Assembly (NCBI GenBank): GCA_025362795.1
Contig: JANYFE010000104.1
Location: 1-64,000, forward strand
Reading direction: 5' to 3'
DNA length: 64,000 nucleotides
From: Rhodobacterales bacterium
Lineage (GTDB): Bacteria; Pseudomonadota; Alphaproteobacteria; Rhodobacterales; Rhodobacteraceae
Numbering within the stretch: position 1 is the first letter of the stretch; the number at the start of each line of letters is the position of its first letter. Below the pieces are notes generated by a model, which saw nothing but the letters and a program-made list of their open reading frames with translations, was not told the DNA's origin and did not search any database. Positions 42,736 through 45,742 of this stretch are shown here, one piece after another. The translations under genes were made by a program, and so were the position numbers.

Positions 42736-43830
42736 TCAGACTTGCCGGCCGAACAACCCAAACCACCGCCCCGCGGGTCGCCGCTCCAGCACCGACTGAT
42801 GCAGGCGTTCCGACGCATCCCGGCCAACCCGCCGTTTGTGGCGGATCAGAAAAAACTTGCCCCAGCTGCGCCAGGTTCCCACCATCGGCGCATTCACATC
42901 GCAGGCAAACCGCGCTCGCCAACCTGCAGGCAGTTCCAGCCCGACGGTTTCCGCCCGCTCCAGCATCCAGACCAGCGGGATGTTCGCCAGAGGCCGCGCC
43001 GCGCCAAGGTCGCCAATCTGCCCGCCGATGTCGCCATGCGCCCCGCAAAACCACACCTGCTCGATGTTGCTCTCCCAGCCCGGCGGACATTCCCACAGCA
43101 CCGGCGCAAAGGCATTGCGCGTCTCGTTCAACGCCAGTGCGTGAAATCCGTGGCGGATCGACGGACCCAAAGTATGGTTGTGGAAACTGGTCTTGTCCTG
43201 CACCAAAAGCCACAACAGCGGCACCTTGATCCCCAGCGATTTCACCGTGTCAAACACCCCGACCATTTCGATCGGTGCCTCGTGATGGCAAAAACGATGT
43301 GAAAATGCCAGCGACGCGGTGCTGCCCGGATCGCTCTGGTAGTGCCGGTAAACCAGTGTGACGCCACGCTCGGTTGCATGTTCGCGCTTCAACAGCCCGA
43401 CCCGGTCAATCACGCCCGCGAGCGACCGCACACCATAGGCCCCCCGCGAATAGCCGATCAGATAGATCCGGTCGCCTTCGCGGTAATGGCTCGCAAGCCA
43501 GCCATAGGCGCGCTTGATCGTGCTGTCGAACCCGCGGCCCTGAATGATATCCCAACCATGCCGCCAGCCTTCCCACTGCAGCCCCGGCTCGTAATAGACA
43601 TTGCGCTGCGCCGTCCGCCCGCCTTCGCGCAGCAGCCGCAGGATTTGTCCGGCATTGGTTTCCATTCCGACTCCCAGCGTCGAGAATGTGCCGTCCAGGA
43701 TGATGACATGATCGACAACCCCACGCTGCCGCCCGGCAGGCACAACCACCGCCGTTTCGGTCGCGGACACCGGATGGCCCCGCCACCAGCTGCGAAATCG
43801 GTCAAACAGGGCCAGGGCCACTCCTCCCAA
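42736..43830 (-). CDS. DUF2235 alpha/beta-hydrolase (Tle1-like phospholipase family)
   Basis: The 364-residue protein fits DUF2235, the fold of Tle1 type VI lipase effectors and of many housekeeping homologues. VIILDGTFSTLG near 43-54 is the opening strand, GYSRGAYGVRSLAG with nucleophile Ser128 is the elbow, VGVFDTVKSLG near 190 holds a likely catalytic Asp, and GAHGDIGG the His. There is no signal peptide, immunity gene or T6SS gene nearby, so I do not call it an effector. It lies just after the decarboxylase terminator, on the same strand. Confidence 0.83.
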   Translation of the reverse strand: MGGVALALFDRFRSWWRGHPVSATETAVVVPAGRQRGVVDHVIILDGTFSTLGVGMETNAGQILRLLREGGRTAQRNVYYEPGLQWEGWRHGWDIIQGRGFDSTIKRAYGWLASHYREGDRIYLIGYSRGAYGVRSLAGVIDRVGLLKREHATERGVTLVYRHYQSDPGSTASLAFSHRFCHHEAPIEMVGVFDTVKSLGIKVPLLWLLVQDKTSFHNHTLGPSIRHGFHALALNETRNAFAPVLWECPPGWESNIEQVWFCGAHGDIGGQIGDLGAARPLANIPLVWMLERAETVGLELPAGWRARFACDVNAPMVGTWRSWGKFFLIRHKRRVGRDASERLHQSVLERRPAGRWFGLFGRQV

Positions 43831-43950: not shown

Positions 43951-45096
43951 TTACAGCTTTAAGGACAGCGCGGTGCAACGCCCCAACTCGCCGAAGCCGT
44001 TGAAACGACTGTTGGTAACGGTGGAATAGGCACCCATGCCCTGAAACACGACATAGTCACCCTCTTCGATGTCAACCGGCAGCGGCACGTCGCCGGGCAA
44101 ACGGTCCACCGAGTCACAGGTCGGCCCAAATACGATATGACCCTGTAACGCGCCGCTGCGGCGCTGGCCCTGAGGATCCAGCACGTCGATCCGGTCGATG
44201 ATGCCAATCTGGCTGAACTCCAAAAGCGATCCGTAGATGCCATCGTTCAGGAACACATGCGCCCCGTCGCGCAGCGCCTTGACCTTGGCCGCCACCGCAA
44301 ACGCATCGCCGCACAACCCACGCCCCGGCTCGCACACCAGCGCGGGACGCGCCTCGCCAAAGGACTCGGTCGTGACCCGGTCAATCGTCGCGAAAATCGC
44401 CTCCAGCTGCGGCAGCACGCCAAGCGCCCGATGATTCGGGAACCCGCCGCCCACATTCAGCCGCGCAATCCGCACGCCCGCATTGTGCGCGATCACCGCC
44501 GCCTCGCGGATATACGACCCCCAGGCGTTCGGATCGGTGCATTGCGTGCCCGGATGGAACGTGATCGAGGCGATATAGCCCGCCGCCGCCACCGTCCTCA
44601 GCAGTTCCACCGCCACATCCTCGGTCGCGCCAAACTTGGCCCCGAAGTTATAGGCAGCGCCCGCGACTGGCAGCTTGAAGCGCACCGAAATCTCGACACC
44701 CGCGCTTGGCACCATCTCGATCAGCTTGGCCAGTTCGCTGGCCGAATCCACCGAATAGGACATGACCTTGCGTTTGACCGCATGCTCGATCTCGACGCGC
44801 GACCGCACCGGGTTGTTGTAATGGATCGCCGCATCGGGGGCGAGCCTGCGGATCAGGTCAATCTCGAACGGCGAGGCGCAGTCAAAGCCATTGACGCCCG
44901 CAGCCACCAGATTCTCGACCACTTCCTCACCCGGATTGCTTTTCACCGCATAGGTGACAAGCCCCGGAAAACCCTCCAGAAACCGCCGTGCCGTGGCTTG
45001 CACCACAGGCGGCGAGAAAAACAGCACCGGGTTTTCCGGCTGCTGGTTGCGAAGAAATTCGGTCGGGTTGGTCCATATTGTCTTGGACAGTCCCAT
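43951..45096 (-). CDS. Ornithine/lysine-type decarboxylase (alanine racemase fold)
   Basis: This 381-residue PLP enzyme is a group IV (fold III) decarboxylase. Lys52 in TYAVKSNPGEE is the PLP lysine; FHPGTQC, NVGGGFP, CEPGRGLCG and GPTCDSVD with Cys327 are the family motifs that place the catalytic Cys/Asp across the dimer. It makes putrescine from ornithine; lysine or both may also be used in this family. The start MGLSKTIWT is chosen by homology, with AGAAAGG upstream. A long structured leader precedes it and a divergent Lrp regulator lies beyond. Confidence 0.92.
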   Translation of the reverse strand: MGLSKTIWTNPTEFLRNQQPENPVLFFSPPVVQATARRFLEGFPGLVTYAVKSNPGEEVVENLVAAGVNGFDCASPFEIDLIRRLAPDAAIHYNNPVRSRVEIEHAVKRKVMSYSVDSASELAKLIEMVPSAGVEISVRFKLPVAGAAYNFGAKFGATEDVAVELLRTVAAAGYIASITFHPGTQCTDPNAWGSYIREAAVIAHNAGVRIARLNVGGGFPNHRALGVLPQLEAIFATIDRVTTESFGEARPALVCEPGRGLCGDAFAVAAKVKALRDGAHVFLNDGIYGSLLEFSQIGIIDRIDVLDPQGQRRSGALQGHIVFGPTCDSVDRLPGDVPLPVDIEEGDYVVFQGMGAYSTVTNSRFNGFGELGRCTALSLKL

Positions 45097-45300
45097 CGGC
45101 GTGATCCTTTCTGCCAACAAGATGCAAGTCCCTTTCCGCTGCTCGAACAAACGGGCGGCACCTGCATGGTTTTTTTCAACCAGGCCAGGTGCGTATGAGC
45201 CGCCCTTTTCCTGCAACGAGTTTGCCGCATATGCGCTACATCCTCACCAGTTAAAACACTATAAATGCCGAAAAACTCCGTTATAATGACGAAAAAGGAC
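45097..45300 (-). promoter_or_regulatory. Structured leader of the decarboxylase gene (speF-type candidate)
   Basis: The roughly 200-base leader contains a long hairpin: GGGCGG (45205-45200) pairs with CCGCCC (45158-45153), CACCTG (45191-45186) pairs with CAGGTG (45164-45159), and TGGTT/AACCA close the loop, with an eight-base bulge on one side. A start-stop ATGTAG and then an open frame from ATG 45230 (MRQTRCRKRAAHTHLAWLKK) precede and run through the hairpin, ending inside the decarboxylase gene out of frame at 44943. Alphaproteobacterial ornithine decarboxylases are known to carry a conserved speF RNA leader; this fits it in place and form, but I cannot run the covariance model. Confidence 0.55.
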
Positions 45301-45310
45301 GGCACATTGT

Positions 45311-45742
45311 ATGGATGACCTCGACCGCAACATTTTGGGCCTGCTGGGGGCCGATGCCCGTATGTCGGTGGCCACTTTGGCGCGGCGACTAAAGGTTGCG
45401 CGCTCTACCATCCAGGCGCGGCTTGAACGGCTGGAGACAACCGGCATCATCGCGGGCTACACCTTGAAGCTGGGGGAAGAGGCCCGTCAAGGCCGCCTGC
45501 GCGCCAGCGTTCTGCTGACCATCGAACCCCGCGCCCAGGCCGGAATCCTGTCGCGCCTGAAATCCATCGCAGAGGTTGAACGGGTTTTCACCACCTCCGG
45601 CCGCTTCGATCTGCTGCTGCAAATCGCCGCCCCCAACACGCAAGTCCTCGATCAGGTTCTTGACCAGATCGGCGCTCTGACCGGAGTCAAATCCTCCGAA
45701 AGCCTGATCCATCTGTCCACAAGGATCGACCGGGCGGTATGA
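45311..45742 (+). CDS. Lrp/AsnC-family regulator next to the decarboxylase
   Basis: A 143-residue Lrp-type regulator: winged helix-turn-helix at about 3-50 (LARRLKVARSTIQARLERLETTGII) and RAM domain at about 65-138 (SVLLTIEPRAQAGILSRL ... GRFDLLLQI). It is a different protein from the Lrp at 4.5 kb. It is divergent from the ornithine decarboxylase across its leader, so control of polyamine or ornithine use is probable by position. The VOC-type gene follows after 102 bases on the same strand. Confidence 0.88.
   Translation: MDDLDRNILGLLGADARMSVATLARRLKVARSTIQARLERLETTGIIAGYTLKLGEEARQGRLRASVLLTIEPRAQAGILSRLKSIAEVERVFTTSGRFDLLLQIAAPNTQVLDQVLDQIGALTGVKSSESLIHLSTRIDRAV

Follow-up and report, generated by a model that had tools for sequence, protein, structure and literature searches.

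The ornithine decarboxylase (ODC) gene of the window (the whole 64,000-nt stretch of contig JANYFE010000104.1 analysed here, to which all coordinates refer) is preceded by a leader of about 120 nt. Judged from sequence comparison, this leader most likely (probability roughly 0.75) controls translation initiation, whereby a signal acting on its 5′ domain and on a pseudoknot between helices P0 and P4 would change formation of a hairpin (P5) at the start codon. Comparison of related leaders shows the element as such, its restriction to this gene, and conservation as well as covariation of P4, P0 (in one clade) and P5. We infer that P5 represses in vivo and is switched. The leader probably represents an on/off switch not described before.

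The ODC gene and its neighbourhood

The gene and its divergent neighbour are located as follows:
43951..45096, minus strand: ODC gene (fold-type III PLP decarboxylase, 381 aa), start codon ATG at 45096-45094
45311..45742, plus strand: Lrp/AsnC-family regulator gene, divergent from the ODC gene (from Pfam and gene order)

The ODC assignment made in the preceding sequence-only reading holds, since the product matches Pfam Orn_Arg_deC_N (4.6e-32) and solved ODCs match it at about 1e-34 in a PDB comparison. The divergent Lrp/AsnC regulator is a candidate transcriptional regulator of the ODC gene. Beside its start (about 45275-45295) lies an imperfect palindrome, TTTCGTCATTATAACGGA (TTTCGTCATTATAACGAA in relatives), a possible Lrp operator overlapping a TATAAT -10 of lrp. 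A Tle1-like/DUF2235 hydrolase gene (42736-43830) follows the ODC gene on the same strand, an order common to Cereibacter; the order Lrp-ODC-DUF2235 is also annotated in Cereibacter azotoformans. In the latter, the lrp-ODC block and the leader are found on a 104-kb record named plasmid pORIO5 (L238, NZ_CP089971.1 57615-62749), where the block adjoins genes for valine--tRNA ligase and citrate synthase. Genes for these two enzymes are chromosomal as a rule.

Distribution and conservation of the leader element

For comparison, ODC homologues with upstream DNA were gathered; the 122 loci include some genomes twice (from two collections), and later counts use distinct leaders. A 33-nt block, CAGGAAAAGGGCGGCTCATACGCACCTGGCCTG (45213-45181, minus strand), is identical in 92 of the 122 loci. 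Its mean pairwise identity amounts to 98.5 %; the corresponding values for ODC are 75.3 % over the first 600 nt and 55.7 % at fourfold third positions.

A covariance model (R1) matched 67 of 394 Rhodobacteraceae genomes, 64 of them strongly and always with one copy per genome, i.e., the element is present in about one in six sampled Rhodobacteraceae. The element is compact and is found in the genus Cereibacter. All fetched R1 loci directly precede this ODC gene, except for the three weakest of the 67 matches, which were treated as chance. Across 241 genomes of alphaproteobacteria, a pattern search (3 mismatches) and model R1 matched only the window's own genome, and the exact pattern was not found in viral contigs. 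At gathering as well as relaxed thresholds, the leader and eight relatives matched no Rfam family, and no description of this leader RNA was found among the open-access papers searched. The loci L126-L131 represent a related ODC clade that has the divergent lrp as well as a partial promoter block (a similar TTTTCATCGGTGAA block) and no RNA element; this clade should be useful for dating the gain or loss of the element.

Fold of the leader

The leader comprises the following elements:
45181..45213, minus strand: invariant 5′ domain of 33 nt, with P1 (45212-45210 with 45184-45182) and P2 (45205-45201 with 45193-45188, A45190 bulged)
45168..45181, minus strand: P3, GGTT (45181-45178) with AACC (45171-45168), loop variable; kept in 41/41 clade-A rows
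45123..45166, minus strand: P4, TGCA (45166-45163) with TGCA (45126-45123), enclosing a variable region; compensatory changes
45137..45218, minus strand: P0, CGTTGC (45218-45213) with GCAGCG (45142-45137), crossing P4 (pseudoknot topology); compensatory changes
45091..45122, minus strand: P5, TCTTGTTGGC (45122-45113) with GCCGATGGGA (45100-45091), 10 bp, predicted to bury AUG and codon 2; pairing kept
45110-45105, minus strand: Shine-Dalgarno sequence AAAGGA, in the P5 loop

Folded alone, the leader of the window has modest stability relative to shuffled sequences (z = -1.62, 14 of 200 shuffles as good); the fold is therefore not established by one sequence, and the case rests on comparison. 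In clade A (41 leaders), the P0-P5 structure contains 29 cells with both sides changed, a value reached by 0 of 500 shuffles (slid controls, 0-19), bearing in mind that related sequences can beat shuffles without structure and that the helices other than P1/P2 rest on few changing pairs. All 29 cells fall in P4 and P0. The compensatory changes of P4 comprise C-G/U-A and A-U/U-A/G-C/C-G, while its last pair is broken in 13 of the 41 rows. In clade A, P0 scores above all 100 permutations; in clade B it is unsupported. The pairs of P1 and P2 are intact and nearly invariant, showing no covariation; since P1, P2 and P3 hardly vary, their support is one of conservation, not covariation. The P2 loop is replaced in L115, L116, L124, L194, L196 and L197, with the lower P2 pairs, as read by eye, kept in most of these variants (L115, L116, L124, L194).

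RNAalifold recovered P2 and P5 in both clades, and in our own alignments also P1. On a tool-made alignment (A2) it yielded partly different pairs, namely the 5′ TGC with the 3′ strand of P4 and an inner CC/GG helix, so that the partner assigned to P4 is provisional. Possible local competitors to the fold were seen by eye, conservation being demonstrated for none.

A long hairpin had previously been described for this region. Its arms are indeed present in the sequence but do not form the conserved structure. Among 41 relatives, no compensatory changes occur, 57 % of cells in the GGGCGG/CCGCCC arm are paired, 21 of the 41 break the U-A pair within CACCTG/CAGGTG, and only the GGTT/AACC tip is kept. 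On these pair counts, the hairpin was rejected as a conserved fold. The more general proposal of a structured leader ahead of the ODC gene, probably controlling its translation, is supported and the element is real, although its fold differs from the one described. A lack of stem covariation and of upstream-frame conservation had been named as what would refute that reading. The outcome is split, with covariation present in a different fold and the upstream frame unconserved.

The start-codon hairpin

Most leaders form all ten pairs of P5. The computed probability of the AUG being unpaired has a median of 0.015 (window, 0.015) versus 0.475 with shuffled upstream sequence. In the outer pair of P5, GGA codons mostly go together with U-A and GGG codons with C-G, and parsimony places eight double switches between U-A and C-G on the gene tree; the four well-supported independent contrasts all point in one direction, which is not significant (sign test, p 0.125). 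Codon 2 is GGA in 118 of 135 cases versus 2.7 % of other Gly codons; since relatives without the leader commonly use GGA too, this bias lends weak support and was not by itself used as evidence.

Predicted promoter and transcript start

The following promoter is predicted ahead of the leader:
45226..45254, minus strand: ODC promoter, -35 TTAACT (45254-45249), 17-nt spacer, -10 TATGCG (45231-45226)

Relatives display the pattern TTG[AT]TC or TTCATC, 17-18 nt, then TATNNN, and the end of their -10 is separated from CAGG by 11-14 nt, mostly 13. This spacing, usually 13 nt between -10 and RNA block, points to the block itself as the site of transcription initiation. In the window, the predicted promoter would place the start of the ODC transcript at about 45219.

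Proposed mechanism and alternative explanations

The ODC mRNA would begin at about 45219 with the structured leader of roughly 120 nt, in which the invariant 5′ hairpin domain (P1/P2) would be followed by P3 and then by P4, whose loop would pair with the 5′ end (P0). P4 would abut P5, where TCTTGTTGGC would pair with the start codon and codon 2 and so hold translation down. The invariant 5′ domain and the P0/P4 pseudoknot would respond to a signal and alter P5 formation, which would relieve or tighten repression. The signal may be a metabolite or a macromolecule; candidates are ornithine, putrescine or another polyamine, an amino acid, and a protein. The leader may thus sense ornithine or polyamines.

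The sequence-only reading had proposed control through a nascent upstream peptide, a mode that would be comparable to SpeFL. An ATGTAG is present at 45241-45236, as stated there, and the frame from ATG 45230 (MRQTRCRKRAAHTHLAWLKK...) is open over 95 codons, passing the ODC start out of frame; moreover, 80 of 96 CATATG-bearing leaders share one frame between this ATG and the core. However, neither presence, frame nor length of this reading frame is conserved: (i) ATGTAG occurs in 7 of 139 leaders, (ii) CATATG is absent from 43 of 139, (iii) CATATG, where it occurs, stands in varying frame with respect to the RNA (80/9/7), the window and its closest relatives having a shifted frame, and (iv) the peptide ranges from 4 to 116 aa, with a stop after four codons in several leaders. 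The predicted -10 box TATGCG includes ATG 45230, so that this ATG is probably absent from the transcript, and the promoter geometry accounts for the fixed distance. Peptide control is thus highly improbable. GGC/GGT/GGA changes at one codon also raised the possibility of a peptide encoded in the core frame (LQEKGGSYAPGLV); this was rejected, its frame, start and stop being unconserved. Conservation as DNA (operator plus promoter, e.g., a site for the divergent Lrp) instead of RNA would agree with the promoter-like block and the divergent Lrp gene being conserved alongside, but the predicted promoter is situated upstream of the conserved block, the compensatory changes of P4, P0 and P5 extend into coding sequence, and L126-L131 lack the RNA although lrp and a portion of the promoter block are present, rendering this explanation improbable.

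Two further explanations are sub-cases of translation-initiation control by the leader, and their likelihoods are not to be added to that of the latter. In case of a metabolite riboswitch, P1/P2 and the P0/P4 pseudoknot would form an aptamer for ornithine, putrescine, another polyamine or a related compound, and the ligand would lock or free P5. Unpaired stretches that do not vary, occurrence at a single metabolic gene, and start-codon sequestration together with a pseudoknot-like topology point in this direction; as in riboswitches, a conserved structured domain is located upstream of a metabolic gene, and P5, as computed, provides an expression platform that hides the start site. Opposed to this are the replaceable P2 loop of the six variant leaders, the absence of a clear alternative structure, and the finding that the unrelated speF RNA bound no ornithine or polyamines by in-line probing (PMC1273637), so that one may consider an aptamer only tentatively. 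The more specific proposition of a new riboswitch class confined to Rhodobacteraceae, which would sense ornithine or polyamine via the invariant 33-nt hairpin and the pseudoknot of 5′ end and loop and bury the start codon to gate ODC translation, is rather doubtful. Alternatively, an RNA-binding protein or a base-pairing RNA could recognise the invariant AGG-AAAA-GGGCG...ACCUGGCCUGG hairpin and alter translation or mRNA stability. The extreme conservation of this short hairpin despite a varying apical loop would be compatible with such recognition, while a general RNA-binding protein would rarely have its site just once per genome and at a single gene; we regard this explanation as unlikely.

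Comparison with known leader RNAs

The SpeFL/speF leader of enterobacteria also regulates an ornithine decarboxylase mRNA. It acts through a conserved nascent peptide, whereas the upstream frame is unconserved in the present leaders.

Like the speF RNA (RF00518), the present element is an alphaproteobacterial leader with structure, located ahead of a COG0019 ODC gene; as in speF RNA, conservation begins near a putative transcript start (PMC1273637). The identity with speF RNA suggested from the sequence did not stand: the RF00518 covariance model gave no match in the window at gathering threshold, nor around the leader to E=5, nor in eight relatives to E=0.5, and genuine speF RNAs have a sequence of their own (AAAGCAACGACGG...GGGCTTTTTTGGTCTC) and belong to a different ODC subgroup. 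The signal behind speF RNA was left open in its description, and in-line probing revealed no binding of ornithine or polyamines (PMC1273637). The spermidine riboswitch, a SAM-aptamer variant (PMC10853860), shares with the present element the link of a leader RNA to polyamines; as compared through Rfam alone, the two differ, since the present leader and eight relatives match no Rfam family.

Closest in logic is the odc1 (uORF-25-1) motif of Sphingomonas echinoides, an alphaproteobacterial ODC leader in which a hairpin loop pairs with the 5′ end and the start region is sequestered, as predicted here; it possesses an 11-aa uORF and a pair of start codons with 2 nt between them, and its signal was left open as well (PMC8632094). 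An NTG-NN-NTG pair was not found at the ODC start in the present leaders. The odc1-like leaders (L156, L219-L237, matched to odc1 by its published description) contain a CCGGCGGACCC...GCTGCTAACGCCGG core that the present element lacks, and model R1, run with filters off against 16 odc1-like loci, gave no convincing match. In these odc1-like leaders, which come from another alphaproteobacterial family, the first start is mostly GTG, not UUG as published, and the second-frame peptide seems to run past 11 codons, unlike the published description. Besides speF RNA and odc1, to which its sequence is unrelated, the element described here is apparently a third RNA leader of ODC genes in alphaproteobacteria; if so, a repeated origin of RNA control of ODC is suggested.
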